Source: Lacipirellula parvula
Lineage (GTDB): Bacteria > Planctomycetota > Planctomycetia > Pirellulales > Lacipirellulaceae
Reading direction: 5' to 3'
DNA length: 64,000 bases
Assembly: GCF_009177095.1 (NCBI RefSeq)
Contig: NZ_AP021861.1
Location: 1,116,001-1,180,000, forward strand
Position numbers and translations under genes: made by a program
Notes under the pieces: generated by a model
What the model was told of the DNA's origin: nothing
The model's input: the letters and a program-made list of their open reading frames with translations, nothing else
Databases searched by the model: none
Shown: positions 33,101 through 52,794 of the stretch, one piece after another
Layout of the letters: each line of letters opens with the position of its first letter
Numbering within the stretch: position 1 is the first letter of the stretch

Positions 33101-33151
33101 GACAGTCATTGTCGTACGTCGAAGCCAGACGAAAGGCATGCACCGCTTCAT
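30128..33151 (-). CDS. Giant sulfatase-like protein with LamG-like, dockerin-like and PEP-CTERM regions; Arg of sulfatase motif replaced
   Basis: A 1007-residue protein. A signal peptide (TMTVGALVLACPLQAFAASS) leads into an arylsulfatase-type domain, KPNILFILGDDIGW, with metal-binding Asp43-Asp44. The formylglycine signature reads C90-S-P-G-K94 followed by IALLTG: the Cys is present but the Arg of CxPxR is Lys. Later sulfatase parts (SDNGGNASARFNEPLIGGKG, GGLRVPFIVRGPGIA) are intact. Residues about 560-750 look like a LamG/concanavalin domain. The dockerin-like repeats are DADFNNDGYVNNDDLVIWKG and GDANGDGVTDGADFLVW. The C-terminus is VPEPAAASLLAIAAVAGWAA plus RRRQTA. It is a paralogue of the gene at 33359, probably surface-anchored. 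Confidence 0.9.
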   Translation of the reverse strand: MKRCMPFVWLRRTTMTVGALVLACPLQAFAASSKPNILFILGDDIGWTQTSVQMDPNIPFSKSDYHETPNLERLASQGMRFSNAYGQPMCSPGKIALLTGKSPAQNQMNNVIDYTLFPDAVYSGHELTGVLPMYKLDENKTVADWLKAKTPDYGTAMIRKDHVGATPTEYGFDLYDFFLNGYAPAGEDPHKLFSTANRANAYINDQASQDKPFFMLLAPSASHAPYEYRQSTFQYFQNKAKGARHKSDQLAADTFELDAMVGQVLDNLDAQGLSDNTYVFFTSDNGGNASARFNEPLIGGKGNIYEGGLRVPFIVRGPGIAPNSTSSVPTVGMDLFATASEIAGITAPLDPMLESASILPVLHNNGQLPGGVPLQRAFGANGELFFHIPHYSDNATPMSAIRDGDYKLIKIYAESGNPEQIMLFNIAANPTESTNVNSPLNLASQMPQKVQQMLGKLDNWLTGVDASMPQRDTDPVMFTWNASQRGEYPTQWRSTTRVKDFRSETWDAVHNQPHNPAYDAKLVATTPLQPNLAHDAYKFDGNDYMFRPFFRVSDPKANSPYDKDNSATLSMWLKIDAMDRNQLVFETGDGNSAGMSMSIGDADGDGVFNDVRVRVLGQGDVSLTATGKLDVFDNPTKRFMEVTAVISDDPANRYLDLYINGALFTHIAGIAGAAGTVNWDGLDEAGLGNARGYSSNNVGGNGGTGPRPFLGGFRGQIAEMRFANYAVTAANVASMYNAKFDAAGYRVQGVSGQAAVPGARPTDLSLGMSESAGMQVSQETRGRLLQALSVDAIVTPGENNSANNGFSSGVLAQNAEYVSYMLNFDPQGNEVGTMKQIVGSVTFSDDIIGLITNVGTLALSDKIVGGFGNYGQAANRGVAFDPANQVTISADHRTITFNLSVAGDDALQFRVLTALNLTPNDADFNNDGYVNNDDLVIWKGAFGTTTAGDANGDGVTDGADFLVWQQTFGTGPVATTAASATVPEPAAASLLAIAAVAGWAARRRQTA

Positions 33152-33358: not shown

Positions 33359-36300
33359 TCATCCGATGCGAACCGCTTTCTTCCGCCGCTGGATTCCTGC
33401 GGCGGAAGCCGCCATGCCGATCAACAACATTGCCGCCGCCGAGGGTTCCGGAACCGCGGCGACGCTCGTCGTGTTAGCAGCGACGTTGGTCACGTTGCTG
33501 GCGACGGCCGACGATCCGTAGGCGACGCCCGTGCCGTTGTTCTGCTGCCAGATCATGAAGTCGGCCCCGTCGGTGATGCCGTCGCCGTTGGCGTCGCCGG
33601 CGGCTGACGTGCCGAAGGCCGTCTTCCACACGGTGAGATCGGCGCTGTTGACGATGCCGTCGCCGTTGAAATCTCCCGGGCCCATAAACCCGGTGACCAC
33701 GCGGAACTGCTGCATCTGGTCGCCGGCCGCGGTAAGCCGGAAGCTCAGGGTGAGGCGATCGGCGGAGATCTTGATGAAGTCGCCGGTGGATCCAGACCCC
33801 ATGAGCGTCAGGCCGCGATCGCTCGTCACGCCGTAGTCGCCGATCGAGCCGAGGATTTTGTCGGTGGCGGCCAGCGAGGCGTCGTCGAACATGATGCCGA
33901 GGATAATCTGGTTAAACGTAATGACGCCCGAGGAGGTGACGGCGCTTCCCGCCGAGCCGACGGGGTCGAGGTCGAACAGGTAGCTGCTGACCAGGGTGCC
34001 CGCCGCCAATTGGGCGGTGGATCCCATGGCGCCCGGCCGCAGGATGACGTTGGCGGGCAAGGCCGCGTCGAGCGTCAGGCTTTGGTCGAGGCGGTCGCTG
34101 CGTTCGTGGAAGATGCGGACGGCTGCGGATTCCACGGCCGCCGAATTCTTTGCGACGCTGCTGGGGCGGCTGGCAAGGCTGGTGGCGCCGCCGCCGAAGC
34201 TCTTCACGCCGAACGTGACGGGCGCCAACGCCGAATTGTAGCTGGCGAGCACATTCGCCGGCGTCAGAGCGTAGTTATTGAATTTGGCGCTCGCCATCTC
34301 GCCGCGGAAACCGCCGGTGAACGGCTGGACGCCGGAACCGCCGGCCGCGCCGAGCCCGTCGCCGCCGACGTTGCCGAGGCCGGCGCGATCGTAGCCGTCC
34401 CACTGCAGGCTGTGCGCATCGCCCAGCTGGCCGTTGATTTGGCCGACAAGCGCGCCGTTGACGTACAGCTGGAGATAGCGGTCGGTGTTGCTGTCGTTGA
34501 AGACGGCAGTGGCCTGAATGAAGTCCTTCGTCGGATCGGCGAAACGGTCGATCGGGACGTCGAGCGTGAGGGCCTCGCCGTTGGCGCCGAGGACGCGGAA
34601 GCGGAGATCGTTGCTGCCGCCGACGCCGTCGGCGTTGCCGAGGGTGAGCGACATGCCCTTCGTGCCGTCGCCCGATTCCATCAGGATGCCGCTGCCTTGC
34701 AAGTCGTCGGCGCGGAACCAGACTTGGGCCGACATCGAACGGTCGAAGTCGTTGGTGCCGGGATTGAGCGTCGTCGTGCGGGCGGTCGGGTCGCTCACAT
34801 GGAAGAAACGAGTGTTCATGCCGTCGCCGCCGTCGAAGTTGAACGCCGCCTTCGACAGATTGGCCTGGTAGCGCTCGGCAGCGAGACGAGTCGGCGCTTC
34901 GCCTCCCGCGTTAATCGTCCAGCTTTCGCGAGCCTTGTAATCGACGTTTTCCAGTGAGCGCCAGAGGGTGGTGTCGACTCCCGGCGTTTCGGCATTCCAA
35001 GTGAGGTTGATGTTCGTCCGGACGTCGTAGGCGAACGAGGCGTCGATTTTTGCCAAGTAGTTGTTGAGCTTGGCCTTCAGATCGGCGACGATCGTCGGGT
35101 TTTGGTTCGCAACGTTGACGGCTTCGCCGATGTCGGTCTTGAGGTTGTAAAGGAAGTACTTGTCGGCGGCCCCGTTTTCGCCGTATTGGCGGTAGAGCTT
35201 GTAATCGCCTTCGCGGACGAACGATGCGGGAATGAGCCGCGTGCTCGGACCAACCGCCATGTACTGCGGTTGGTGAACGTAGATTTCGCCCCCTTCGCTG
35301 TACTGCCGCTCCAGGTGGTCGACGCCGGCGGGCAGGACGCCGCCGTTTTTCAGCACGACGTTGAGGTCGGCGCCTTCAACCCCTTGCGGGACCGGTCCGG
35401 TGTAGCCGCCCCAGGAAGCGACGGTCGAGAAGATATCCATCGTCGTGACGGGGAGATCGCTGAACGTATTCGCAGCGATGCCGGGGCCCGCGACGATATA
35501 GGGGACGCGAACGCCGCCTTCAAGGATCGATGACTTTCCGCCGCGCAGCGGGTAGCCGGAGCTGAGGTTGAGCGCGGCGCCGTGGTCGGACGTGAACAGG
35601 ATGTAGGTGTTGTCGGCGATGCCGAGTTCTTGGACGCGATCGAGCACGGCGCCGACGGAGTCGTCCATGTGTTCGATCATGGCGGCGTAGCCGGGATCTT
35701 TGTGGACGGCCCCCTTGGGGAGCGCTTCGTACTTGGCGCGGGTTTCGGGCTTGGCGTAGATCGGGGGATGGGGCGCCTTCGGCGCGTACTGCATGAAGAA
35801 GGGCGTGTTGCTATTCACCGACTGCGTCATGAACGTGTCGGCTTCGTGCGCGAGGGCTTCGAGGCCCCACGGGTCGACGTTCTGCGAAGGGACGCCAACG
35901 TCTCGGTAGTAGTCGAAGCCTGCGGAGGCAGGCGTGACCGTCGTGGGAATGTCGAGATGCCACTTACCGATGAGCCCCGACGTGTAGTTGGGGTTCGACT
36001 GTTTCAGGATGCGCGGAATTGTGAGTTGGGTGGGGTCGAAGAATTCAGGCGTCGGAGGAGTGAGCGGCAATCCCGTAAAGGAACCCATGTAACGGTCCGT
36101 GCCAGGCTGCGCGTCTTTCAGCTCCGTTGATTGAAGTTGGCCGGGGCTTTTGCCGGTGAGCAGTGCGGCGCGCGTCGGGCTGCACATCGACGTGGGAGCG
36201 TAACCATTGCTGAACCGCATGCCGGACTGCGCGAGCGCCCCGATGTGCGGGGTTTGATAGAAGTCGCTCTTGGAATTCGGCACGTTCGGATCCATGAGGA

Positions 36301-36478
36301 CCGAGAGGCCGTTCCAGCTCAGGTCGTCCATGATCATCACGATGATGTTCGGCGCGGCAGGCTGGGCCGAGGCTGTCTCGACGGAGACGAGCGCGAAGGC
36401 CCCAAGGGTTGCCAAGGCAATGGCAGGCCGAGCGAACTTGGTGGCAGCAAATCGGACCGCGGAAGAGAAGTTAGTCAT
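33359..36478 (-). CDS. Giant sulfatase with LamG-like, dockerin-like and PEP-CTERM regions
   Basis: A 1039-residue protein. The signal peptide covers roughly residues 12-38 (FARPAIALATLGAFALVSVE...ASAQ). The sulfatase domain has PNIIVMIMDDLSWNG (Asp51-Asp52) and the intact formylglycine motif C99-S-P-T-R103 followed by AALLTGKSP. KWHLDIP and FTSDHGAALNLSSGYPLRGG are further active-site strands. A LamG-like region lies at about 570-780. The dockerin-like pair is GDFNGDGIVNSADLTVW and GDANGDGITDGADFMIWQQ. The C-terminus is VPEPSAAAMLLIGMAASAAG plus a basic tail. It should remove sulfate from a polysaccharide at the cell surface once matured by a formylglycine-generating enzyme. The gene at 30128 is its paralogue, 207 bases downstream. 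Confidence 0.92.
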   Translation of the reverse strand: MTNFSSAVRFAATKFARPAIALATLGAFALVSVETASAQPAAPNIIVMIMDDLSWNGLSVLMDPNVPNSKSDFYQTPHIGALAQSGMRFSNGYAPTSMCSPTRAALLTGKSPGQLQSTELKDAQPGTDRYMGSFTGLPLTPPTPEFFDPTQLTIPRILKQSNPNYTSGLIGKWHLDIPTTVTPASAGFDYYRDVGVPSQNVDPWGLEALAHEADTFMTQSVNSNTPFFMQYAPKAPHPPIYAKPETRAKYEALPKGAVHKDPGYAAMIEHMDDSVGAVLDRVQELGIADNTYILFTSDHGAALNLSSGYPLRGGKSSILEGGVRVPYIVAGPGIAANTFSDLPVTTMDIFSTVASWGGYTGPVPQGVEGADLNVVLKNGGVLPAGVDHLERQYSEGGEIYVHQPQYMAVGPSTRLIPASFVREGDYKLYRQYGENGAADKYFLYNLKTDIGEAVNVANQNPTIVADLKAKLNNYLAKIDASFAYDVRTNINLTWNAETPGVDTTLWRSLENVDYKARESWTINAGGEAPTRLAAERYQANLSKAAFNFDGGDGMNTRFFHVSDPTARTTTLNPGTNDFDRSMSAQVWFRADDLQGSGILMESGDGTKGMSLTLGNADGVGGSNDLRFRVLGANGEALTLDVPIDRFADPTKDFIQATAVFNDSNTDRYLQLYVNGALVGQINGQLGDAHSLQWDGYDRAGLGNVGGDGLGAAGGSGVQPFTGGFRGEMASAKFNNYALTPANVLASYNSALAPVTFGVKSFGGGATSLASRPSSVAKNSAAVESAAVRIFHERSDRLDQSLTLDAALPANVILRPGAMGSTAQLAAGTLVSSYLFDLDPVGSAGSAVTSSGVITFNQIILGIMFDDASLAATDKILGSIGDYGVTSDRGLTLMGSGSTGDFIKISADRLTLSFRLTAAGDQMQQFRVVTGFMGPGDFNGDGIVNSADLTVWKTAFGTSAAGDANGDGITDGADFMIWQQNNGTGVAYGSSAVASNVTNVAANTTSVAAVPEPSAAAMLLIGMAASAAGIQRRKKAVRIG

Positions 36479-37148
36479 TGATGAGTCGGTCAGGGAACTT
36501 AGTGGAGATCCTTAGCGCTCAAGCGACGTCCCTGCCACTTTTCTGCTGACAATCGGGCCTTTTCGTGCGTTCGTTGGAGGAGTGACCTTGAGTATTCACC
36601 AACTGCGGAGAATGTACAGATTTTTGGCGAAATTGAATGCGTTTTCGTCGCTCAGATTCAGTTACATTTGCGAAATAATCCGGTCAGGGATAGCAAGCCG
36701 TTCGCTTTCCACGGAGACCTCCCTTTTAAGGGCCTTGCGTGTCGCCAGAAGTCACTTCGACGGGACGCTCCGGCGGCTTCGGATTTGTGAAATCGACTGC
36801 TCGGATTCTGCGTTTAGTGTAAAGCCAGTTTTCTGCTTGCAATTGCCCGCGTCCACCCGTCGCCAAGGGCCGTGATATGTCGCGGGTGCACCGTGGATTT
36901 CAGCGGACAAGGGGGTGATTGAGAGCTCCTCGACGGGCGTCGTCGGCCTCTCGTGCTGGACACTCCTTCGCGACCCTCCCTCGCGGCTTCCCGCCCTTCT
37001 ATCTGGTTCGAACGGCAAATTCGGAGAGATCCTCCTTCGATCTCGGCGAATTTGCGGTCCCCGTGATAGACGGCGCTGGCTTTGGATAGCCAGAATGAGT
37101 CCATTCCTTAGGTAATGAATGCGGCGCCGAGGCATTGGTCCAGGGTTG
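36479..37148. other. Long intergenic region before the EPS locus
   Basis: 670 bases between the divergent sulfatase and the first EPS gene, noticeably richer in A/T than the flanks. It must carry promoters for both. A GGAGG followed by TTG at 36588 starts a 95-codon frame on the plus strand, but its composition is not coding-like. No inverted repeat family is seen here. Confidence 0.45.
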
Positions 37149-38012
37149 ATGGAAGCAGATTCTTTAGATCGCCCGATTATCGTCGTCGGGGCGCCGCGCT
37201 CCGGGACGACCCTGCTGGGGCGATTGCTCGGCGAGCACCCTGCGCTGGCGCACGTCGATGAGCCTCGCCTTACCTGGCGGTACGGTAACGACGCCAAGGG
37301 GGATATGCTCACCGGCCGCGACGCCCGCCCGGAAGTTTGCCGGCATATCCGCGCGAAGTTCGCGGAGGCCGTGCGTAATGACGGGAAGCAACGGCTGCTG
37401 GAAAAGACGCCGAGCAACTCGCTGCGGATGGAGTTCGTCGATCGGGCGTTGCCGGGCTGTATTTTCGTTCACATCATTCGCGACGGCGTGGAATCGTCGC
37501 TCGCGATTCGGCGGTTCTGGCAAGATCACGCCCACGGCGTCGACCGCGGCAAACTGTGGGAGCGGCTGCGGGAGATTCGCCTGCGGCAGTTGCCGTACTA
37601 CGGCCGCGAGTTCATTCGGCGCGTCGCTCCCAAGTCGATGTCGGGGCTCGTACGGCGCCCCGTTTGGGGGCCCCGCATTCCGGGGATCGATTCGCTGCTG
37701 CTGGAACTGGAACTGATTGAAGTTTGCGCCCTGCAGTGGCGGACGTGCGTCGAGGCGGCCTGCCATTACGGCCGCGAGCTGCCGGCCGACCGCTACCGGG
37801 AAGTTCGGTTGGAGGAGATGTCGCTCGAGAAGCTGCGAGAGATTCTCGCCTTCTGCCAACTCGAACCGTCGCCGGAAGTCGAGGCGGCGTTCGCGCGGGA
37901 CTTCGATTCGCAGCAGACGGCCCACCGGCGGAGCGTCGCCCAGCCGGAAGATTTGGAACTGATCAACAAGTGGACCGAGTCGACCCGCAAGTGGCTCGGC
38001 TACAGTGACTGA
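37149..38012 (+). CDS. Sulfotransferase family protein, first gene of EPS locus
   Basis: A 287-residue protein (start ATG 37149 with AGGG upstream; an ATG at 37119 would add ten residues). The PAPS 5'-phosphosulfate loop is PIIVVGAPRSGTTLLGRLLG, and the 3'-phosphate region is VHIIRDGVESSLAIRRF (Arg and Ser of the RDxxxS pattern). EKTPSNSLR also fits the family. It transfers sulfate from PAPS to a hydroxyl of a sugar or other acceptor in the cytoplasm. The next gene, a glycosyltransferase, starts 12 bases later. With the sulfotransferase at 52795 this points to a sulfated polymer. Confidence 0.88.
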   Translation: MEADSLDRPIIVVGAPRSGTTLLGRLLGEHPALAHVDEPRLTWRYGNDAKGDMLTGRDARPEVCRHIRAKFAEAVRNDGKQRLLEKTPSNSLRMEFVDRALPGCIFVHIIRDGVESSLAIRRFWQDHAHGVDRGKLWERLREIRLRQLPYYGREFIRRVAPKSMSGLVRRPVWGPRIPGIDSLLLELELIEVCALQWRTCVEAACHYGRELPADRYREVRLEEMSLEKLREILAFCQLEPSPEVEAAFARDFDSQQTAHRRSVAQPEDLELINKWTESTRKWLGYSD

Positions 38013-38024
38013 AGTCGTTGAAAC

Positions 38025-39260
38025 ATGCCTGCAAAAACGCCCCCGACATTGCTGTTAATTTCGCAGGTCTACCCTCCCGACCCGACGTCGGTGGGGCAGC
38101 ACATGCATGACGCGGCCGTGGAGATTGTGAACCGCGGCTGGCGGGTGATCGTGTACACCTCGGCGCGCGGATACACCGATTCGTCGCAAAAGTACCTGCG
38201 GCGGGAGACGCGCGACGGCGTCGAGATTCGTCGGCTGCCGCTTTCAAGTTTTGGCAAAAGCACGCTGGCGTTGCGGCTGCTGGGGCAGATTCTATTCGTG
38301 GCGCAAGTGGCGCTGCGCGGGATGTTCTTGCCAAAGCTCTCAGCGATTCTGGTGAGCACCAGCCCGCCTATGGCAGGCGCGGCAGCACTCTGGATTCGTT
38401 TCTTCCGCCGCGTGCCGGTGAAGTTCTGGGTGATGGACCTGAGCGTCGATCAGATGATCGAGGCGGGGCTCGCCAAGCCGAACGCAATCACTACTCGGCT
38501 GCTGCGCGGGGTCTACCGCCGGACGCTGCAGAAGTCGCAGGGGATCGTCGCGCTCGACCGGTTCATGGAAGAGCGGATCGCCAAGACCTACGGCGTCGAT
38601 AAGAACGTCTACGTGATGCCGCCCTGGCCGCATGAGGATCACGTCGATCCAGTATCGCATGCGGAGAACCCGTTCCGCACGCAGCATGAACTGACGGACA
38701 AATTCGTCTTCATGTACAGCGGCAACATGGGGATTGGGCATCCGATCGACGTGCTGCTGCAAGCGGCGCGGCAGCTAGAGGATATGCCCAACGTGATGCT
38801 GTTGTTTATCGGCGGCGGCGTGCGGCGGGCGGAAGTTGAGCGCGAGATCGCCGAGCGGAAGCCGAAGAACGTCATGCTGCTGCCGTACCAGCCGATCGAC
38901 CAGCTGCGGTATTCGCTTTCGGCGGCCGACGTCCATCTGGTGACGATGGAAGACGGCGGCATCGGCTGTTTTCACCCCTGTAAAGTCTACGGGGCGATGG
39001 CCGTGGGGCGTCCGGTGCTGTTTGCCGGGCCCGATCCGTCGCATGTGACAGACCTGATTGAGCGATATATGATGGGGTGGCGTATTTCACCCCACGATCC
39101 GGCCCAAGCAGCCCAGGAAATGCGGCGAATTGCGGGTCTGCCGACGGCGGAGCTCCAAGCGATGGGCGAGCGAGCGCGAGCCGCGATCACCCAGGCTCTA
39201 AGCAAGACCCAACTCTGTAATCGGTTCTGCGACGTCGTCGTGAGCGGCGTCGGCGGGTGA
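38025..39260 (+). CDS. Glycosyltransferase family 4 protein
   Basis: A 411-residue GT-B glycosyltransferase. The N-terminal domain opens LLLISQVYPPDPTSVGQHMH, a WbuB-like start with a Gly/Ser-rich sugar-binding loop. The C-terminal donor domain contains KFVFMYSGNMGIGHPIDVLL, VMLLFIGGGVRR, NVMLLPYQPIDQL, and a GCFHPCKVYGAMAVGRPVLF segment in place of the classical EX7E site (the PCKxxEYMA-type signature, here with Gly for Glu). It adds a sugar to the growing lipid-linked EPS unit in the cytoplasm. Preceded by a sulfotransferase and followed by the acyl carrier module. Confidence 0.9.
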   Translation: MPAKTPPTLLLISQVYPPDPTSVGQHMHDAAVEIVNRGWRVIVYTSARGYTDSSQKYLRRETRDGVEIRRLPLSSFGKSTLALRLLGQILFVAQVALRGMFLPKLSAILVSTSPPMAGAAALWIRFFRRVPVKFWVMDLSVDQMIEAGLAKPNAITTRLLRGVYRRTLQKSQGIVALDRFMEERIAKTYGVDKNVYVMPPWPHEDHVDPVSHAENPFRTQHELTDKFVFMYSGNMGIGHPIDVLLQAARQLEDMPNVMLLFIGGGVRRAEVEREIAERKPKNVMLLPYQPIDQLRYSLSAADVHLVTMEDGGIGCFHPCKVYGAMAVGRPVLFAGPDPSHVTDLIERYMMGWRISPHDPAQAAQEMRRIAGLPTAELQAMGERARAAITQALSKTQLCNRFCDVVVSGVGG

Positions 39261-39308: not shown

Positions 39309-39611
39309 ATGAGCAAACGTGATCAGGTGATGCAGCTGCTGCGCGAATGCGTCGCGGAGTATGGCGAGCAGACGGGCGGCGAATACGACCTGAAGGACGA
39401 GACGCCGCTCATCGGCCCCGACTCGCCGGTCGACTCGCTCGGCTTGGTGATGATCATCACCGGGTTCGAGTGCAAGTTGAACGAAACGTTCAACGCGGAA
39501 GTCGTTCTCGCCAGCGAAAAGGCGATGTCGATGAATCGGAGCCCGTTCCGGACGCTCGGCGCGATGGCCGACTACGGCGTCGAATTGCTCGATGAAGAGG
39601 CCGCCGCATGA
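39309..39611 (+). CDS. Acyl carrier protein-like protein
   Basis: A 100-residue acidic protein with the carrier-protein fold. The attachment site for phosphopantetheine is DSLGLV (Ser near residue 44, in PDSPVDSLGLVMIITGFE). Helix I is QVMQLLRECVAEYGEQ and helix III lies around SPFRTLGAMADYGVEL. It is longer than AcpP at both ends. The stop overlaps the start of the SDR gene by four bases (ATGA), so carrier, SDR and ligase form a tightly coupled trio. I infer that it carries an acyl or amino-acyl group destined for the polysaccharide or a precursor. A phosphopantetheinyl transferase is not in the window. Confidence 0.85.
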   Translation: MSKRDQVMQLLRECVAEYGEQTGGEYDLKDETPLIGPDSPVDSLGLVMIITGFECKLNETFNAEVVLASEKAMSMNRSPFRTLGAMADYGVELLDEEAAA

Positions 39612-40312
39612 AGCCGCAAGATTCCGCGATCGTCATCACCGGTTCCAGCCGCGGCATCGGCCTGGGGCTCACCAACGTCATGCTCGAACGGGGCTGGCAT
39701 GTCTTCGGCTGCAGCCGCGGCCCGAGCGAGGTGCAGCACGAGCGCTACCAGCATTTCGAAATCGACGTCGCCGATGAGAAGGGCGTCGTCCACCTGTTCG
39801 GCGGCGTTCGCAAGAGCGGCAAGCCGTTGTACGCGGTGCTGAACAACGCCGGCACGGCGTCGATGAACCACGTGCTGACGACGCCGTTCGAAACGATGAA
39901 GAAGCTGTTCGCCGTGAACGTCTTCGGCACGATGCTTTGCAGCCGCGAAGCGGCGAAGCTGATGCTGCGGCACAAGACAGGCCGGATCATCAACTTCGGC
40001 AGCGTCGCGGTGCCGTATTCGCTGGAAGGCGAGGCGGTCTACACGGCGTCGAAATCGGCGGTCGAGGCCTACACGAAGGTGCTGGCCCGCGAGATGGGCG
40101 AGCATGGGATCACCGCCAACTCGGTGTCGCCGAACCCGGTGAAAACCGACCTGATTGCCGGCGTGCCGGTCGAGAAGATGACGCGGCTGATCAACCGGCA
40201 GTCGATCAAGCGGTACGGCGAGTTCGAAGACGTGCTGCGGGTGGTCGACTTCCTGCTCGATCCGGAAAACACGTTCGTCACCGGGCAGGTGATTTATCTC
40301 GGAGGTCCGTGA
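39608..40312 (+). CDS. Short-chain dehydrogenase/reductase, FabG-like
   Basis: A 234-residue SDR. The NAD(P)-binding motif is TGSSRGIGLG near residues 11-20, the NNAGTAS motif follows near residue 80, and the catalytic Tyr-x-x-x-Lys is VYTASKSAVEAY with the Ser in INFGSVAV. FabG enzymes reduce 3-ketoacyl-ACP, which fits the carrier protein encoded just upstream. A sugar-reducing role is the alternative. It overlaps both neighbours: four bases with the ACP gene, and a TGATG junction with the ligase gene. Confidence 0.9.
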   Translation: MKPQDSAIVITGSSRGIGLGLTNVMLERGWHVFGCSRGPSEVQHERYQHFEIDVADEKGVVHLFGGVRKSGKPLYAVLNNAGTASMNHVLTTPFETMKKLFAVNVFGTMLCSREAAKLMLRHKTGRIINFGSVAVPYSLEGEAVYTASKSAVEAYTKVLAREMGEHGITANSVSPNPVKTDLIAGVPVEKMTRLINRQSIKRYGEFEDVLRVVDFLLDPENTFVTGQVIYLGGP

Positions 40313-41664
40313 TGCCGCTCACGTGGCTGCTGGACCGATTTCGGGAACATGCCGACGACGACGCGATCGTTTGGCACGACCAGATCACGCGCTACGGCGA
40401 ACTGCTGGAGCGGGTTGAACGGGCCGAGGAATTTCTGCGGGCGAACGACGTGCGGCCGGGCCAGGCCGTGATGCTCGACGCCGATTTTTCGCCCAACGCG
40501 ATCGCGCTGCTGCTCGCGGCCATGCAGAACCGCAACATCATCGTGCCGATTGCTCGGCATGTGACGGCTGATCGCGATAAGTATTGCCGCCTGGCGCAGG
40601 TGAGTCACCGACTAAGCGTTAACGCCGACGACAGCTACGGCTGCGTTTCGGAAACGGGCATCGAGCCGTCCCATGAGCTGTACAAGCAGCTGCACGAATC
40701 GCAAAGCCCAGGGCTCATCCTGTTCAGCTCTGGTTCGACCGGCGAGCCGAAGGGGGCGGTCCACAGCCTCGACTTCCTGCTGAACAAGTTCAAGCTTTCC
40801 CGCCACACGCAGCGAATGATCACGTTCCTGCTGTTCGACCATATCGGCGGGTTCAACACGATGATGTACGGCCTGGCCAATCATGGCTGCATCATCACGC
40901 TGCCGTCGCGCGACGCGGCGACTGTTTGCCGGGCGGTGGAGAAGTATCGGGCCGAGGTGCTGCCGGCGTCGCCGACGTTCCTCAACTTGCTGCTGGTTAG
41001 CGGCGAGTACGCGAAGCACGACCTCTCGAGCCTGAAGATCATCAACTACGCCACCGAGGTGATGCCGGCGGCGACGCTCGAGCGGCTGAACGCCGCGTTC
41101 CCGGGGGTGACGTTCCGGCAGTCGTACGGCATGACGGAACTGGGAATCATGCGGACCCAGTCGCGGGACAACGCCTCGACCTGGATTCGCGTCGGCGGCG
41201 AGGATTACCAGACGCGGGTGGTCGACAACATCCTGCACATCAAGGCGAAGTCGTCGATGCTGGGCTATTTGAACGCTCCGTCGCCGTTCGACGCCGAGGG
41301 GTGGTTCAACACGCAGGACGAGGTGGAAGTCGACGGCGAGTGGCTGCGATTTAAGGGCCGTAAGTCGGACATCATTAACGTCGGCGGCGAGAAGGTTTAC
41401 CCGGCCGAGGTCGAGACCGTCATTTTGGAAGTCGACAACATTGCCGACGCCACGGTGACGAAGGAAGCGAATCCGCTCACGGGCAGCATCGTCGTCGCCG
41501 AGGTGACGCTCCACCAGGACGAGCCGTTGCCGAACGTCATCAAGCGGATTCGGCAGCATTGCTTCTCGAAATTGCCGTCGTATAAAGTTCCGGTGAAGAT
41601 CCGGCTGAGCGACGCGTCGGCGCGGGTGAGCGAGCGGTTCAAGAAACAGCGAGGCGAAAAGTAG
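40312..41664 (+). CDS. AMP-binding acyl ligase (acyl-CoA or acyl-ACP synthetase-like)
   Basis: A 450-residue member of the adenylate-forming family. The motifs are in order: A3 LFSSGSTGEPKGAV, A5 SYGMTELG, A7/A8 around WFNTQDEVEVDGEWLRFKGR followed by KSDIINVGGEKVYPAEVE, and a C-terminal lid whose A10-like Lys is in SERFKKQR. It activates a carboxylic acid as acyl-AMP and transfers it to CoA or a carrier protein. The start, ATG 40312, shares a base with the SDR stop; the frame is open upstream but belongs to the SDR gene. With the carrier protein two genes up, acyl-ACP formation is a reasonable inference. Confidence 0.9.
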   Translation: MPLTWLLDRFREHADDDAIVWHDQITRYGELLERVERAEEFLRANDVRPGQAVMLDADFSPNAIALLLAAMQNRNIIVPIARHVTADRDKYCRLAQVSHRLSVNADDSYGCVSETGIEPSHELYKQLHESQSPGLILFSSGSTGEPKGAVHSLDFLLNKFKLSRHTQRMITFLLFDHIGGFNTMMYGLANHGCIITLPSRDAATVCRAVEKYRAEVLPASPTFLNLLLVSGEYAKHDLSSLKIINYATEVMPAATLERLNAAFPGVTFRQSYGMTELGIMRTQSRDNASTWIRVGGEDYQTRVVDNILHIKAKSSMLGYLNAPSPFDAEGWFNTQDEVEVDGEWLRFKGRKSDIINVGGEKVYPAEVETVILEVDNIADATVTKEANPLTGSIVVAEVTLHQDEPLPNVIKRIRQHCFSKLPSYKVPVKIRLSDASARVSERFKKQRGEK

Positions 41665-41750
41665 GCATCAGCCACCGCCTGCCGTTCCGCACCGTGCCGC
41701 GGAGCGCGGTATGATTGTGATCTTCGCCACCTCGCTTACTATCGGTCGCC

Positions 41751-42863
41751 ATGTCGTCGCCCTCCCCTGCCCCGTCTGCCGCTGCTGGCGTCGCCAAGAT
41801 TCGGCCGCTCGGGCCTGAGGACATTGGCCACGTGCGGGCGATGCTGGCCAAGCGCGACGGCCATGCGTGGGACGAACGTTCGACGGCGTGGTTTCTGCAT
41901 GGGCTCGATCCGCAGCGCTGCATGGCGTGGGGGGCGTTTGTCGGCGACAAGCCGGTTGGGCTGACGTCGATGTTCTTGCGAACGCTGTCGGTCGGCGGCG
42001 GGACGGAACGAGTCGCCTATTGGGCGAACCTGTATGTCGACCCCGACTATCGCGACCAGATGCTCTACCCGCGGTTGCCGATGATGATGCTCACGTCGCT
42101 TAAGGCACTTGGGATCGAGATGCTGTACGCGCCGGTGCGGCTGCCGCAGCTGACGAAGGCTCACCTCGGGTTGGGGTTCGCCAAGGTGGGCGCCATGGAG
42201 GTGCTTGTACGGCCATTGCGGCCGGCGCGGTTCATTTGCAAGTACAAGCGGCTGGGCTGGGCGCGGCCGCTCGCCGGGACGGTGGATGCAGCGTTCGGCG
42301 CCGTGTTGGCGCTGACGGCGGCACGGCCTGCAACTGGGGCGCGGATCGATGATGGGCCGATCGAGCAGCGGCCGGTGGAGCAACTTCAGGCTGTGGCGAC
42401 GCTCATCGGCGAGCGCTCGGCGGGGCGAATCGCCCAACTCTGGTCGGCCGAACTGCTGCAGCAGCGGTATGGTCAGACCCGCGAAGGCGGAAGTTACCGC
42501 TTGGCGACCGCCTGGCGGGGAGACGCGCTGCAAGCGGCGGCGATCTACCGGTTAGCGGAGCGCGGCGACGGCATTCAAGTTGGCGTGTTGATGGATTTTG
42601 CGTTCCGCGAGGGGGGCGAGGCCGACGGCGCCGTGGCGCTGCGAGCCGTCGAGAAAGCGACGCTCGCTGCGGGGGGCGAACTGCTGCTCTACCTCGATGG
42701 TTTGGGCGACGCGAATCGGCAGTTGCTCAAGCGGCGCGGGTTCCGCTCGTCGCCCGAGAACTACGAGTTCCTCGTCTGGCCGAAGAAGCTGGCGACCGCC
42801 GAGGCGCGCTTCGGCGATTGGAATCGTTGGGCCTTTTCCTTCCGCGACCACGACGCATTTTGA
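41751..42863 (+). CDS. GNAT-type acyltransferase, two-domain
   Basis: A 370-residue protein. The N-terminal part (KIRPLGPEDIGHVRAMLAKR, ERVAYWANLYVDPDYRDQM) has the GNAT start and the acyl-CoA binding strand. The second half (about 215-365) repeats a similar fold and ends with GGELLLYLDGLGDANRQLLK and an RGFRSSPENYEFLVW strand. It belongs with FemAB/GNAT-like enzymes that acylate sugars or peptides from acyl-CoA, acyl-ACP or aminoacyl donors. It lies 86 bases after the ACP-SDR-ligase trio, so it could use the activated acyl group made there; this is inference. It is followed closely by the deacetylase gene. Confidence 0.75.
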   Translation: MSSPSPAPSAAAGVAKIRPLGPEDIGHVRAMLAKRDGHAWDERSTAWFLHGLDPQRCMAWGAFVGDKPVGLTSMFLRTLSVGGGTERVAYWANLYVDPDYRDQMLYPRLPMMMLTSLKALGIEMLYAPVRLPQLTKAHLGLGFAKVGAMEVLVRPLRPARFICKYKRLGWARPLAGTVDAAFGAVLALTAARPATGARIDDGPIEQRPVEQLQAVATLIGERSAGRIAQLWSAELLQQRYGQTREGGSYRLATAWRGDALQAAAIYRLAERGDGIQVGVLMDFAFREGGEADGAVALRAVEKATLAAGGELLLYLDGLGDANRQLLKRRGFRSSPENYEFLVWPKKLATAEARFGDWNRWAFSFRDHDAF

Positions 42864-42876
42864 GAGGTGACGTGAC

Positions 42877-43734
42877 ATGAAGAGCGCCGCCGCGTCGCCG
42901 GTCGTCAACGCCCTGTCGTTCGACATCGAAGATTGGTTCCACATGGTCGGGATCGACGCTGTCGATAAGCCCGAGCTGTGGCCGACGTTTCCATCGCTGG
43001 CCGAACGCTACACCGATCAAATTCTGCAGGCGCTCGCCGATGCGAACGTGCGGGCGACGTTCTTCACGCTGGGATGGATTGCCGATCGGCACCCGGCGCT
43101 CGTGCGGCGGATTGCCGACGCGGGGCATGAACTCGGCACGCACTCGTACTGGCACCGGCAATGCTTCACGCTGACGCCGGAAGAACTGCGCGAAGATTTG
43201 CGGCGTTCGATCGATGCGATCGAAAACGCGGGGGGGCAGAAACTGCTCGGGTTTCGTGCGCCGACGTTCTCGATCATCCCGGGGAGCGAGTGGGTTTTCG
43301 ACGTACTGCTCGACCTAGGGCTGAAGTACGACGCCAGCCTGTTCCCGGGCGTACATGGCGGCGGCGGGTACCCTTGTCCGATGGAACGGCACTACTTCAC
43401 CGGCGCCCCGTCGGGCCGGCCGATGCCGGAACTGCCGATGAGCATGATGACGCTGCTGGGGCGGCGGATTGCGTTTTCCGGCGGCGGCTATTTGCGGCTG
43501 CTGCCGCCCTGGCTAATTCGCCGCGGGTTCGACCAGCTTAACGCTCAGGGCATCCCGGTGGTGGCTTACCTCCACCCGCGCGACTTCGCGGCGGATTGCC
43601 CGCGAGTGCCGATGCCGCCGCATCGGAAGTTCAAGTGTTACGTCGGCCTCGGATCGACGGCGGCGAAGTTCAAGATGCTGCTCGAGCGCTATCGGTTTAC
43701 CACCTGCGCCGAGGTGGCGGGTATTGTCCAGTGA
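42877..43734 (+). CDS. Polysaccharide deacetylase (NodB fold, DUF3473-type)
   Basis: A 285-residue protein. The NodB motifs are LSFDIEDWF (Asp16, Asp19 region), FFTLGWIADRHP, and GTHSYWH (His89 and His93, the metal ligands). FRAPTFSI is motif 3. The C-terminal PVVAYLHPRDF and FKCYVGL resemble the extension found in deacetylases tied to exosortase/EPS loci. It removes N- or O-acetyl groups from a polysaccharide. A good ribosome site (AGGTGA) precedes ATG 42877, 13 bases after the GNAT gene. No signal peptide is seen, as is usual for this subgroup, so it probably acts on cytoplasmic intermediates. Confidence 0.88.
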   Translation: MKSAAASPVVNALSFDIEDWFHMVGIDAVDKPELWPTFPSLAERYTDQILQALADANVRATFFTLGWIADRHPALVRRIADAGHELGTHSYWHRQCFTLTPEELREDLRRSIDAIENAGGQKLLGFRAPTFSIIPGSEWVFDVLLDLGLKYDASLFPGVHGGGGYPCPMERHYFTGAPSGRPMPELPMSMMTLLGRRIAFSGGGYLRLLPPWLIRRGFDQLNAQGIPVVAYLHPRDFAADCPRVPMPPHRKFKCYVGLGSTAAKFKMLLERYRFTTCAEVAGIVQ

Positions 43735-43944: not shown

Positions 43945-44937
43945 ATGAGCAAGAAGAAAGTCCTCGTCGCCGGCGGCGGCGGTTTCATTGGCGGTCACCT
44001 GGCGGCTCGTTTGCTGAAAGATGGCTTCGACGTCCGTTGCGTCGACGTGAAGCCGATGGACGAATGGTATCAGGTGTTCGACGAAGCCGAGAACATCGTC
44101 GCCGATCTCAAGGATCGCCACGCCTGTGATGAAGCTTGTCATGGCGTCGACGACGTTTACAACCTCGCTGCCGACATGGGCGGCATGGGGTTCATCGAAA
44201 ATAACAAGGCGCTCTGCATGCTGTCGGTGTTGATCAACACCCACTTGCTGCAGGCCGCGCAGAAGGAAGGCGTGAAGCGGTTCTTCTACGCGAGCAGCGC
44301 GTGCGTGTACAACGCCGAGAAGCAAGTCAACGAAGACGTCATTCCGCTGAAGGAAGAAGACGCCTACCCCGCGATGCCGGAAGATGGCTACGGCTGGGAG
44401 AAGCTGTTCTCCGAGCGGATGTGCCGCCACTTCCGCGAAGACTACGGTCTGCGGACGCGGGTCGCGCGGTTCCACAACGTCTACGGCCCCTACGGCACCT
44501 GGGAAGGCGGCCGCGAAAAGGCGCCCGCCGCTGTCTGTCGGAAGGTGATTCACGCCAAGGAAACCGGCGCGACCGAGATTGAAATCTGGGGCGACGGCAA
44601 GCAGACCCGCAGCTTCATGTACATCGACGATTGCGTGAAGGGGATTCTGGCCATCATGGACAGCGACATCCTCGAACCGATCAACCTCGGCTCGGACGAG
44701 ATCGTGACGATCAACGGTCTGAGCGATTTGGTCGAAGACATCGCCGGCGTGAAGTTGAAGCGGACGCACAACCTGAGCGCCCCCAAGGGCGTGAACGGCC
44801 GCAACAGCGACAACACGAAGATCATGCAGTACTTGGGTTGGGCCCCCGGCATTAAGCTCCGCGAGGGGATGGCCAAGACTTACGATTGGATTCTGGGCGA
44901 ATACCAGGCCAAGTATGCCGCGACGGCTTCGAAGTAA
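43945..44937 (+). CDS. GDP-mannose 3,5-epimerase-like NAD-dependent epimerase
   Basis: A 330-residue extended SDR. The Gly-rich NAD motif is VAGGGGFIGGHLA. NLAADMGGMGFIENN, FFYASSACVY (with the catalytic-type Cys120), DGYGWEKLFSE (Tyr149, Lys153), and RFHNVYGPYGTWEGGREKAP follow plant GDP-mannose 3,5-epimerase motif for motif. The enzyme converts GDP-D-mannose to GDP-L-galactose or GDP-L-gulose. Combined with gmd and fcl further on, GDP-mannose is the hub for at least two deoxy or L-sugars. The match is by remembered motifs; a different sugar-nucleotide epimerase is possible. A strong terminator follows. Confidence 0.88.
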   Translation: MSKKKVLVAGGGGFIGGHLAARLLKDGFDVRCVDVKPMDEWYQVFDEAENIVADLKDRHACDEACHGVDDVYNLAADMGGMGFIENNKALCMLSVLINTHLLQAAQKEGVKRFFYASSACVYNAEKQVNEDVIPLKEEDAYPAMPEDGYGWEKLFSERMCRHFREDYGLRTRVARFHNVYGPYGTWEGGREKAPAAVCRKVIHAKETGATEIEIWGDGKQTRSFMYIDDCVKGILAIMDSDILEPINLGSDEIVTINGLSDLVEDIAGVKLKRTHNLSAPKGVNGRNSDNTKIMQYLGWAPGIKLREGMAKTYDWILGEYQAKYAATASK

Positions 44938-45318: not shown

Positions 45319-45365
45319 AGCAGATGCACTTTCCCGCTCACGAGCGGAAACTTCAAGGTTTACAA

Positions 45366-46511
45366 ATGGCTCATTGCATTGCGGTTCTCATCGGCACGCG
45401 GCCTGAAGCGATCAAAATGGCGCCCGTCATTGCGGCGTTGCGCGACGATCCGTTGCTCGAGCCGTACGTCATCAACGCTGGGCAGCATCGCGAGATGATT
45501 GCCCAGGTGGTGGAGCTGTTCGGCATCCAGGTCGACGCCGATCTCGCGGCGATGGAGCCGAGCCAAACGCTCGCCGGGTTGACGTCGCGGTTGGTCGACC
45601 GAATCGATCAAGCCCTCGCGGCGGCGCAGCCAGAGATGGTGCTCGTGCAGGGCGACACGACGACGGTGTTGTGCGCGGCGCTTGCGAGTTTCTACCGCCG
45701 GATTCCGATCGGGCATGTCGAAGCGGGACTGCGAACGGGGACGATCGATTCGCCGTTTCCGGAAGAGGCCAACCGGCGGCTGACGAGCCCACTCGTGGCG
45801 CTGCATTTCGCGCCTACGGAAACCTCGCGGCAGGCGCTCTTGGCCGAACGGATTCCCGATGAATCAATCTTCGTCACCGGCAACACGGTGATCGACGCGC
45901 TGTTGGCGGAAGTTCGCCGGCAGCAAGATGCGGAGGTGCGGGGGTCGCTCCATAGCCAATTTGAACAAGTGATCGGCAGCGACTGGAACGCGCGGCCGTT
46001 CATTTTGGTGACGGGGCATCGGCGCGAGAATTTCGGTTCCGGGTTCGAGTCGATTTGCGCGGCCCTCGCCGAGCTCGCGACGAGGCGGCCCGACGTGCTG
46101 ATCGTTTACCCAGTGCACCTCAACCCGCAGGTGAAAGAAGTGGTTCACGCCCGGCTGGGGAATCTGCCGAATGTGCGGCTGATTCCGCCACAGCCGTACG
46201 CGCAGTTCGTCGCCCTGGCGACGGCGTGCAAGTTGATCCTCACCGATTCGGGCGGCGTCCAGGAAGAGGCCCCGTCGCTTGGCAAGCCGGTGCTGGTGAT
46301 GCGGGAGTCGACCGAACGGCCCGAGGGGGTGGCGGCGGGGGCGGTGCGGCTGGTGGGGCCCCACGCCGACCGGATCGTCACGGAGACATTGCGGCTGCTC
46401 GACGACGAGGCGGCCTACGGGGCCATGGCCCAGGTGGCGAATCCCTATGGCGACGGCGAGGCGGCGGGGCGGATTGTCGCGGCGATTCGCCAGTATCTGA
46501 GTGGTCGTTAG
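45366..46511 (+). CDS. wecB: UDP-N-acetylglucosamine 2-epimerase (non-hydrolysing)
   Basis: A 381-residue GT-B-like epimerase. The start, MAHCIAVLIGTRPEAIKMAP, is the classical N-terminus and sets ATG 45366. QGDTTTVLCAAL, HVEAGLRTG, PFPEEANRRL, TGHRRENFG, VYPVHLNPQV and TDSGGVQEEAPSLGKPVLVMR-type segments all appear in order. It interconverts UDP-GlcNAc and UDP-ManNAc, giving a ManNAc donor for EPS. It follows the triple-nested repeat and is the first gene after the terminator, so a new promoter must lie within 45001-45365. Confidence 0.94.
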   Translation: MAHCIAVLIGTRPEAIKMAPVIAALRDDPLLEPYVINAGQHREMIAQVVELFGIQVDADLAAMEPSQTLAGLTSRLVDRIDQALAAAQPEMVLVQGDTTTVLCAALASFYRRIPIGHVEAGLRTGTIDSPFPEEANRRLTSPLVALHFAPTETSRQALLAERIPDESIFVTGNTVIDALLAEVRRQQDAEVRGSLHSQFEQVIGSDWNARPFILVTGHRRENFGSGFESICAALAELATRRPDVLIVYPVHLNPQVKEVVHARLGNLPNVRLIPPQPYAQFVALATACKLILTDSGGVQEEAPSLGKPVLVMRESTERPEGVAAGAVRLVGPHADRIVTETLRLLDDEAAYGAMAQVANPYGDGEAAGRIVAAIRQYLSGR

Positions 46512-47058: not shown

Positions 47059-48582
47059 ATGCAGTACGTACTAACCATGAGCTGCATTGCTGCGATCGTC
47101 AGCTACCCGCTGACGCATTTCGTGGCTTCGTTGGCTCAGCGGTGGGGCTTCGTCGACCGGCCCGACGGGCATCACAAAAGTCACAAGAAGCCGGTCTCGC
47201 TCGGCGGCGGCTTTGCCGTCTTCATGGCAGCGGTGGTGACGTTCGCGGTCGAATTTTTCTCTTCGCAGAATCTGCAAGAGTCGCTTCACGACAATGCCCC
47301 GTTCCTTGCCGGCTTGCTGCTGGCGGGGGGCTGGATCGTGCTACTAGGTTTGTACGACGACCGCTTCGGGATGAAGGGGCGGTACAAGCTGCTCGGACAG
47401 ATTGTCGCGGCGCTGATCGTCATTGGCTCGGGATTGGAGATCAAGGCGTTCTCACTGTTCGGCGAACGCATTCCGTTGGGTTACCTCTCCGTTCCATTCA
47501 CTTTGTTCTGGTTGGTCGGCGCCATCAATTCGCTGAACCTGCTCGATGGCATCGACGGACTGGCGACGACGATCGGCATCATCCTCTGTTCGGCGATCAC
47601 CGTGATGGCGCTCTGGTTCGGACAACCGGCCGTCGCCGTCGTCGCTGCGGTATTCGCTGGAGCGCTACTTGGATTTCTACGGTTTAACTTTCCGCCAGCG
47701 AGTATTTTTCTGGGCGACGCCGGAAGCATGCTGATCGGACTGATCGTCGGTTCGCTGGCAATCGGCGCCTCGCTGAAGGGCCCGGCTACCGTCGCGATGG
47801 CGGCGCCGCTGGCGATCTGGTCGTTGCCGATGTTTGATTCGTTCGTCGCGATCTTGCGGCGGAAGCTGACCGGCCGCAGCATCTACGCCACCGACCGCGG
47901 GCATTTGCATCACCGGCTGATGGCCCGTTTTGGCAAGAACACCCGCGTGCTGGCGGTGGTGGCGCTCTGCTGTGCGGTGACGTGCGGCGGCGCCTTGCTG
48001 AGCATGTTCATGCAGAACGACCTGATGGCGATCGGGTCGGTGCTGCTCGTGATTTGCATTCTGGTGGCGACGCAGATCTTTGGCCACGTTGAGTTCATGA
48101 TGCTAGCCAACCGCGTGAAGTCGGTCGGCATGTCGTTCGTCAAACCCTCCAACGGCAGCGGCGCATGGCACTCGTCAGTGCGTCTACAGGGGACGCGCGA
48201 GTGGGACATGCTGTGGCAGTCGCTGATCGAATACGCGGAGAAGTCGCGGTTGGTGGAGGTGCGGATCGACCTCAACCTCGCGTCGATTCAAGAGGCGTAC
48301 CATGCTTCGTGGAAGCGTCGCAGCAGTTGCGAACGCCGCGAGCTGTGGCGAACGGAAGTGCCGCTGTTCGTCAATCAACACGTCGTCGGCCGGATTTCGA
48401 TCTGCGGCGAACGGACCGACGGAGCGCTGGTCTGCGATGTGATCGGCCGCGTGATGGACATGCTCGAAACGGTGGAAGTGGAGATCGCTTCGCTGGCGTC
48501 GACGCAGTCGCTGCCTCCGCAAATCGCTCCCGTTCCCGCCGCGCCCATCGAAGAGGTTTCGTCGACGCCGGTCGGCTCCTGA
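47059..48582 (+). CDS. WecA-like polyprenyl-phosphate sugar-1-phosphate transferase with C-terminal extension
   Basis: A 507-residue protein. Residues 1-340 form about ten membrane helices with the MraY/WecA motifs GFVDRPDGHHKSHKKPVSLG, GLYDDRFGMKGRYKLLGQ, INSLNLLDGIDGLA, SIFLGDAGSMLIG, and a late DRGHLHHRLMARFG His motif. It transfers a sugar phosphate (probably GlcNAc-1-P) to undecaprenyl phosphate, starting EPS assembly. The last 165 residues are a soluble domain (REWDMLWQSLIEYAEKSRLV, VPLFVNQHVVGRISICG) ending in a helix. WecA proteins usually lack such a tail; its role is unknown and may be regulatory. Confidence 0.92.
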   Translation: MQYVLTMSCIAAIVSYPLTHFVASLAQRWGFVDRPDGHHKSHKKPVSLGGGFAVFMAAVVTFAVEFFSSQNLQESLHDNAPFLAGLLLAGGWIVLLGLYDDRFGMKGRYKLLGQIVAALIVIGSGLEIKAFSLFGERIPLGYLSVPFTLFWLVGAINSLNLLDGIDGLATTIGIILCSAITVMALWFGQPAVAVVAAVFAGALLGFLRFNFPPASIFLGDAGSMLIGLIVGSLAIGASLKGPATVAMAAPLAIWSLPMFDSFVAILRRKLTGRSIYATDRGHLHHRLMARFGKNTRVLAVVALCCAVTCGGALLSMFMQNDLMAIGSVLLVICILVATQIFGHVEFMMLANRVKSVGMSFVKPSNGSGAWHSSVRLQGTREWDMLWQSLIEYAEKSRLVEVRIDLNLASIQEAYHASWKRRSSCERRELWRTEVPLFVNQHVVGRISICGERTDGALVCDVIGRVMDMLETVEVEIASLASTQSLPPQIAPVPAAPIEEVSSTPVGS

Positions 48583-52759: not shown

Positions 52760-52794
52760 CCCGTTTCCGTAAACTGCACAGTAGTTATCGATCC

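Follow-up and report, generated by a model that had tools for sequence, protein, structure and literature searches.

A widespread ACP-reductase-ligase cassette in an exopolysaccharide locus of Lacipirellula parvula and its possible role in hydroxyacylating surface sugars

Why do genes for an acyl carrier protein (ACP), a FabG-like short-chain dehydrogenase/reductase (SDR) and an AMP-forming acyl ligase stand together in the exopolysaccharide (EPS) locus of a planctomycete, and which acyl group might they provide? We addressed this question in a 64,000-nucleotide stretch of the Lacipirellula parvula genome, hereafter the window (positions 1,116,001 to 1,180,000 of the 6.92-Mb contig NZ_AP021861.1, assembly GCF_009177095.1; coordinates below are those of the window unless a locus is named). 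A preliminary description of this DNA had taken the three genes and a following two-domain GNAT for a dedicated four-gene module that activates a carboxylic acid, reduces it on its own carrier and attaches it to a sugar, giving a possibly 3-hydroxyacylated polymer. The first three genes, here called the trio, are a real and widespread cassette that has been annotated before, and the GNAT stands outside the conserved unit. The role of the trio is probably to supply acyl-ACP for sugar acylation, a conclusion that is better founded than the exact product.

A conserved three-gene cassette

All four genes lie on the forward strand. The ACP gene (39309-39611, +) encodes 100 amino acids with the carrier serine in a DSLGL motif and the family motif LADEKAMS...SPFR. 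The SDR gene (39608-40312, +; 234 amino acids) matches PF13561 and PF00106 and has the motifs TGxxxGIG, NNAG and YxxxK, and the ligase gene (40312-41664, +; 450 amino acids, PF00501 and PF13193) belongs to a family related to TmlQ of thiomarinol synthesis. ACP and SDR overlap by 4 bases (ATGA) and SDR and ligase by 1 base (TGATG), while 86 bases separate the ligase from the tandem GNAT (41751-42863, +; 370 amino acids), a proposed N-acyltransferase that matches PF00583 with 21.5 bits against a cut-off of 20.7. A longer ligase reading frame starting at 39937 was rejected as a start artefact. The reading frame coordinates and the Pfam matches of SDR, ligase and GNAT bear out the overlapping arrangement noted earlier. 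The two-domain nature of the GNAT was likewise found in a structure model (mean pLDDT 77, built from 5 sequences), which predicts two GNAT domains in an N-myristoyltransferase-like arrangement (TM about 0.6).

At E 0.01 the window ACP had no match in Pfam or NCBIfam, and a PDB search with it gave no match up to E 1; we call it an ACP because of its carrier serine and its family membership. The strict carrier motif is present in 74 of 85 members of the ACP family, and the remaining 11 also have a serine at this site. Among the four trio ACPs that were scanned (the window; L154:8153-8452; L041:8248-8553; L119:8166-8498), three had no Pfam match and one fell below the PP-binding cut-off, so that such genes tend to stay unannotated. 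Plasmid records name the ligase a fatty acid--CoA ligase or an adenylate-forming enzyme and the reductase an SDR oxidoreductase; the carrier gene appears as ACP or as a hypothetical protein.

Conservation was assessed in 92 loci chosen for the ligase (L037-L041, L049-L128, L145-L147 and L153-L156), the window not being counted. This set excludes duplicates (L034-L036, L138, L142-L144), loci of polyketide synthase (PKS) type (L042-L045, identified by eye from the first residues), loci with other ligases (L046-L048), a locus whose contig ends within the trio (L148) and plasmid loci (L129-L132). Several of its members are closely related to one another (for example L054/L055 and L078/L081), so that the loci do not count as independent. 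In 87 of the 92 loci, ACP and SDR were both found no more than 4.5 kb from the ligase; only the SDR was there in one and only the ACP in two. The order ACP-SDR-ligase held in 83 of 85 scored loci, the distance from the SDR stop to the start of the ligase domain having a median of 2 bases and being at most 30 bases in 72 of the 85; a 1-base or 4-base overlap of SDR and ligase also occurs in six relatives (L035, L037-L041). Pairwise distances of ACP, SDR and ligase were correlated (r 0.72, 0.67 and 0.62; 0 of 1000 permutations as high), which would fit genes that travel together, and shared host descent would also yield some correlation.

Within the host order, a ligase above 400 bits was found in 13 of 296 genomes, the next best match having 123 bits. 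Eight of these 13 carry the row ACP-SDR-ligase, one is cut by a contig end, and in four the ligase and SDR are followed by a large PKS-like protein, with a separate ACP called in three of these four. By record title, the best 80 of at least 549 relatives in species genomes came from Planctomycetes, Chloroflexi, Rokuibacteriota, Firmicutes groups, Bacteroidota, Proteobacteria, Desulfobacterales and Cyanobacteria, and further from Gemmatimonadetes, Acidobacteria, Verrucomicrobia, Ignavibacteriota, Cloacimonadota, Omnitrophota and others. The spread is patchy, with matches at E 1e-80 in 8 of 369 genomes of a gammaproteobacterial class and in 5 of 394 genomes of an order. E. coli genomes searched with two gammaproteobacterial trios, whose DNA is distant, gave no match, and searches of viral contigs and phage records were without yield. 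The recurrence of this gene order in many phyla shows that the arrangement is not due to chance. The idea of a four-gene unit was not sustained: in the 92 loci, tblastn located the tandem GNAT only four times, two of these loci being also represented by duplicates. It adjoins the ligase in L049, L050 and L053 and is separated from it by one gene in L052, and other acyltransferases take this position elsewhere.

Some loci depart from the common pattern. At L122:1263-2600 a stop codon lies inside the match range of the ligase, and the gene order is ligase-ACP-SDR. Both ligase types occur in L146:5500-13000, which holds an EPS-type SDR and ligase, a polysaccharide deacetylase, and then a PKS-type ligase, SDR, ACP-like and PKS-like gene. 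A Rhizobium plasmid (L131:6076-11729) has a trio-type ACP annotated as hypothetical, a GNAT-like gene (by eye), an SDR and a ligase; a gene nearby carries the annotation CmlS, a halogenase.

Polysaccharide and acyltransferase neighbours

Neighbouring genes were counted in 50 loci with at least 4 kb of flank on each side, with 19 windows of four genomes as controls. The gene panel drew in part on families met beside trios and favours such loci. By this panel, at least one polysaccharide family was present in 42 of 50 trio loci against 5 of 19 controls, at least two in 31 of 50 against 1 of 19, and an acyltransferase lay nearby in 41 of 50 against 3 of 19. The refuting case named in the preliminary description, a trio occurring mainly outside polysaccharide loci, is not borne out by these counts, and its proposal of a dedicated carrier, ligase and reductase set for sugar acylation is supported by them. 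Among the same 50 loci we counted beta-ketoacyl-ACP synthase (KAS) in 11, deacetylase in 10, PseH-type GNAT in seven and NeuB/PseI in four. Directly 3' of the ligase, on the same strand and within 400 bases, stood 64 genes (67 found, minus three of PKS type), which include eight Hexapep, seven GNAT (PF00583), seven KAS III, two DegT and two of aminoglycoside 3-N-acetyltransferase (AAC(3)) type. Since the type of acyltransferase varies, the trio itself probably makes the acyl-ACP donor from which sugars are acylated.

Two loci with genes for pseudaminic acid (Pse) point to the acceptor group. In L153 the order is flagellar-cap-like genes, PseB, an aminotransferase, a nucleotidyltransferase, a PseI-like gene, PseG, ACP-SDR-ligase, PseH, a glycosyltransferase and, at some distance, Maf; PseB, PseG and PseH scored above NCBIfam cut-offs and Maf above the Pfam cut-off, the names FliD, FliS, PseC, PseF and PseI being given by eye from first residues only. 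In Anoxynatronum buryatiense (L124) the trio has a PseH-like GNAT on one side and a PseG-like gene on the other, both named by eye in the same way, and comes after a PseI above cut-off. These settings place the trio where the amine of a sugar gets acylated.

In the window, the gene directly downstream of the GNAT encodes a polysaccharide deacetylase (42877-43734, +; PF01522, with TIGR03006 below cut-off), whose proposed role is amine exposure. The preliminary description had placed the module between glycosyltransferases, which holds for the upstream side (GT4 glycosyltransferase, 38025-39260, +, a Pfam match directly upstream of the ACP) and is corrected by the deacetylase on the downstream side. 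A deacetylase was present in nine of 11 GNAT loci against one of the 39 others (Fisher 2e-7, a significance overstated owing to kinship among the loci), the GNAT loci comprising those with the tandem GNAT and those where another GNAT family lies near the ligase; none of the 11 KAS loci had one. This association suggests de-N-acetylation of a sugar followed by its re-N-acylation, which we infer for loci of the window type. No aminotransferase was seen among the window genes scanned, and the deacetylase is therefore the likely source of the free amine.

Further gene types occur beside the trio. A family of 485-554 amino acids stands directly 3' of the ligase in 11 loci with Chloroflexi titles (L061:10327-11985, L054:11347-12825 and kin), with a hexapeptide-type gene next in eight of the 11; the two members scanned had no Pfam match. 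In L145:5955-6728 an aminoglycoside-3-N-acetyltransferase-type enzyme (PF02522) adjoins the trio as yet another acyltransferase type at this place. A Parabeggiatoa metagenome-assembled genome has a gene for 1921 amino acids after the trio (L099:4146-9908), which is most likely the one among the 64 downstream genes that has condensation and AMP-binding domains.

Ligase kinship and the acyl group

A profile of trio ligases scored TmlQ with 404 bits, against 65-178 bits for 18 other ligases. In a tree, 50 family rows separated from 12 of these others (six near-alike ones were left out) with SH-aLRT 96; within the family, the PKS type lay on one side of a branch with 91, the EPS type being supported by a weak 63. 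The EPS and PKS ligase types share 104 conserved positions, 45 of which occur in at most one-fifth of the 18 others. Ligase residues 201-285, which we take from the motif layout to hold the acyl pocket, are 51-52% identical to TmlQ, other ligases reaching at most 40-43% there. Judged by TmlQ of the thiomarinol plasmid, the trio ligase belongs to the Mup/Tml-type family. The plasmid SDR is kin to MupS (PDB 4yxf, E 1.4e-94), and the plasmid trio was thereby identified as the thiomarinol priming set.

This kinship favours an omega-hydroxyacyl product, 4-hydroxybutyryl or 3-hydroxypropionyl. We presume that MupQ and TmlQ act through a bis-thioester and that succinyl-CoA is the substrate of TmlQ. 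According to passages of the sources, malonyl-CoA is the precursor from which MupQ, MupS and MacpD form 3-hydroxypropionyl as a starter (PMC10098928), and the C4 unit of thiomarinol derives from succinate or 4-hydroxybutyrate (PMC4685789); the mechanism was not found in the portions available of a symposium volume (PMC7024214) or a mupirocin genetics paper (PMC6367315). Amide-linked 4-hydroxybutyrate is reported on Pse in a passage of PMC9912281, and on 3-amino-3,6-dideoxyglucose of Idiomarina abyssalis in a title that appears in two reference lists. The 3-hydroxyacyl product of the preliminary description was not supported, as those relatives closest to the ligase that have been studied work with omega-hydroxyacyl starters.

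The chemistry, acyl group, acceptor and order of steps would accordingly be conjectured as follows. Acting as one cassette, ligase, SDR and ACP would produce a short hydroxyacyl group in thioester linkage to this dedicated ACP. The ligase would adenylate a carboxylic acid, most plausibly the free end of succinyl-CoA or malonyl-CoA, and load it onto the ACP, and the SDR would perform a reduction, in the favoured version of the other thioester end to an alcohol, yielding 4-hydroxybutyryl- or 3-hydroxypropionyl-ACP. The NodB-type deacetylase would free the amine of an amino sugar, which the tandem GNAT would re-acylate from the acyl-ACP to give an N-hydroxyacylated exopolysaccharide. This complete sequence, from omega-hydroxyacyl-ACP to N-hydroxyacylated polymer, is the one that we favour, at slightly below an even chance. 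Broader and held only tentatively is the proposal that one ligase lineage, with carrier and reductase, may supply omega-hydroxyacyl units both to antibiotic PKSs and, in many phyla, to amino-sugar acyltransferases of surface polysaccharides and flagellin glycans, that the deacetylase and GNAT of Lacipirellula may carry out a Nod-like re-acylation on EPS, and that SDR and ACP may have been recruited separately in each branch.

Several results weigh against an omega-hydroxyacyl product and its transfer. For the trio SDR, MupS came out at rank 27 with 88 bits, against 108.5 bits for a FabG, and the profile of trio SDRs scored TmlS with 126 bits, below an ordinary SDR of the same genome (168 bits). 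In the SDR tree the trio SDRs and the Rhizobium one form a clade with support 100 and the PKS SDRs a clade with 99, ordinary SDRs of the same genome lying between. The trio ACP reached only 7 bits with the Tml ACP. The SDR thus falls outside the MupS subfamily and the ACP outside the MacpD/Tml type, and no ketosynthase or PKS adjoins the trio among the window genes scanned. Since neither SDR nor ACP is kin to the antibiotic proteins, the omega-hydroxy chemistry is carried over from the ligase, that is from the loading step alone, and room is left for a 3-hydroxyacyl product. A 3-hydroxyacyl unit is an equally good candidate for extension in the 11 loci with a KAS. The GNAT-deacetylase statistic suffers from the kinship already mentioned, and the present analysis ties no trio to an organism with a known acylated glycan.

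An alternative in line with the preliminary description is a route in which the ligase would load a 3-oxo acid such as acetoacetate onto the ACP and the SDR would make a 3-hydroxyacyl-ACP for transfer to an amino sugar. A free 3-oxo acid is an unusual substrate, and the ligase pocket and kinship indicate the TmlQ type. The proximity of the SDR to FabG speaks for this route. Some trios are moreover accompanied by a KAS, another ACP and another SDR, which would fit extension to 3,5-dihydroxyhexanoyl. This is a known O-antigen acyl group, and among the fatty N-acyl groups on bacterial surface glycans 3-hydroxybutyryl is described as the most abundant, both according to parts of PMC10609480; on balance we consider the 3-hydroxyacyl route unlikely, if still to be reckoned with. 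The trio might also activate another hydroxy or amino acid (lactate, glycerate, or 2,4-dihydroxybutyrate as in Vibrio cholerae O1), which the SDR would oxidise or reduce before transfer to the sugar. RfbL and RfbK provide a precedent (PMC12208996, in part), and many such N-acyl groups are known from passages of PMC10609480 and PMC9912281. The conserved SDR, however, implies a step at a carbonyl or alcohol, for which simple loading has no need, and RfbL was likened by description only, which leaves this explanation improbable.

Transfer could instead be to a hydroxyl group, with a deacetylase unrelated to the GNAT, and the hexapeptide transferases beside many trios could be O-acyltransferases. 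PseH, NeuD-like and AAC(3)-type enzymes act on amines in known cases, and the GNAT-deacetylase association also argues for N-acylation; we regard O-acylation as rather improbable. That the trio makes a lipid or secondary metabolite and lies in polysaccharide loci incidentally finds some encouragement in the PKS-linked cousins, in the nonribosomal peptide synthetase-like gene after the trio of L099, and in the eight of 50 loci that have no panel polysaccharide gene. Nine of the 50 have no panel acyltransferase, which likewise counts against a role in sugar acylation; fewer than two polysaccharide families were found in 19 of 50, and L086, L104, L105, L125 and L126 gave zero panel matches. Given the excess of polysaccharide genes over the controls and the pse/Maf island of L153, a lipid or metabolite function is very improbable.

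Comparable systems and the surrounding locus

The statement that no system of this make-up had been described needs revision, since all three annotations have been published together for Aeromonas, Enterobacteriaceae and Yersinia ruckeri O1 (PMC7874193, PMC4875605, PMC5552943). In passages of these papers, orf1-3 of group II polar-flagellin islands of Aeromonas (98 strains) are given as an ACP, a 3-oxoacyl-ACP reductase and an AMP-dependent synthetase (PMC7874193); in flagellin islands of Enterobacteriaceae, genes for Acp, FabG and CaiC were each present in 71-72 strains and were taken to indicate a possible liposugar (PMC4875605). Likened by annotation and not by sequence, these islands agree with the window in the three annotations and in being glycan loci, there with pse genes, and the Aeromonas genes stand in trio order; they differ in being accompanied by luxE/luxC and in their published interpretation, which was fatty acid synthesis or possibly a liposugar. 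The window, too, has the three genes together in a glycan locus, and L153 is a flagellin-type island. In Y. ruckeri, Table 2 of PMC5552943 lists ACP, AMP synthetase, 3-oxoacyl-ACP reductase and a polysaccharide deacetylase as O1-specific genes. By annotation this set resembles the window including its deacetylase, the listed order being ACP-synthetase-reductase. A 4-hydroxybutanoyl legionaminic acid may occur in Y. ruckeri, but no part of the present argument rests on it. The O-antigen chemistry of Y. ruckeri was not found in the available part of a review (PMC6770984). The annotations are thus already published for flagellin-glycosylation islands and Y. ruckeri O1 without a proven function, and none is assigned in the parts available of the three papers.

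Other systems share part of the scheme. A carrier protein and a ligase (RfbK/RfbL) in the O-antigen cluster of V. cholerae O1 supply an N-acyl group, according to a passage of PMC12208996. By description, this use of a carrier and ligase for an O-antigen N-acyl group is like that proposed for the trio. The V. cholerae system presumably has other reductases in place of the FabG-like SDR. MupQ/MupS/MacpD and the set on pTML1 combine a ligase of the trio ligase's family with the same three activities side by side, but their order is ligase-SDR-ACP, a polyketide synthase comes next, SDR and ACP are of other subfamilies, and the product feeds an antibiotic side chain. With NodB, NodA and NodF, an amino sugar is deacetylated and then N-acylated from a dedicated ACP, with no AMP ligase and on an oligosaccharide, not an EPS. 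By description, this Nod-factor scheme is like the re-acylation proposed for the window's deacetylase and GNAT with their own ACP.

Two candidates were rejected: the window ligase is not a member of the exosortase-A-associated EPS ligases (TIGR03098, 89.9 bits against a cut-off of 592.35), and the sfm cluster of Shewanella oneidensis has a FabG-like gene but with a thiamine pyrophosphate enzyme, a methyltransferase and an ATP-grasp protein (PMC3765264, in part). A Flavobacterium psychrophilum serotype paper had, in the part available, no passage on genes for 3,5-dihydroxyhexanoyl (PMC5601056), and in the open-licence literature we found no paper in which such trios are connected to the antibiotic cassette or to the N-acylation of glycans.

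The surrounding genes appear to form an EPS locus of Wzx/Wzy type. Upstream lies a sulfotransferase (37119-38012, +; Pfam), and downstream follow a NAD-dependent sugar epimerase/dehydratase (43945-44937, +; Pfam), the UDP-N-acetylglucosamine 2-epimerase WecB as a possible source of N-acetylmannosamine (45324-46511, +; TIGR00236 above cut-off), a WecA-like sugar-phosphate transferase (47059-48582, +; Pfam/NCBIfam) and a second sulfotransferase (52597-53640). The cluster further contains a flippase, an FkbM methyltransferase, two more GT4 glycosyltransferases, a WcaF-family acetyltransferase, a sub-threshold O-antigen ligase match and two additional sugar epimerase/dehydratases, one of GDP-mannose dehydratase type. 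The Idiomarina sugar with 4-hydroxybutanoyl is also sulfated, as its title states, possibly a coincidence with the two sulfotransferases here. Two large sulfatase-like proteins adjoin the locus (30128-33151, -, and 33359-36478, -; NCBIfam sulfatase matches sub-threshold), the second with a PEP-CTERM-like C-terminal tail (NF038126, 26.4 bits, below the cut-off of 50).

To our knowledge, little is known of planctomycete exopolysaccharides, and the favoured scheme, if true, would give them their first predicted acyl decoration. It would make an unnamed and widespread trio a marker for hydroxyacylated surface sugars, and it would link the chemistry of antibiotic starter units to the glycans of the cell surface. 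The source of amide-linked 4-hydroxybutyrate in bacterial polysaccharides would then become directly testable.

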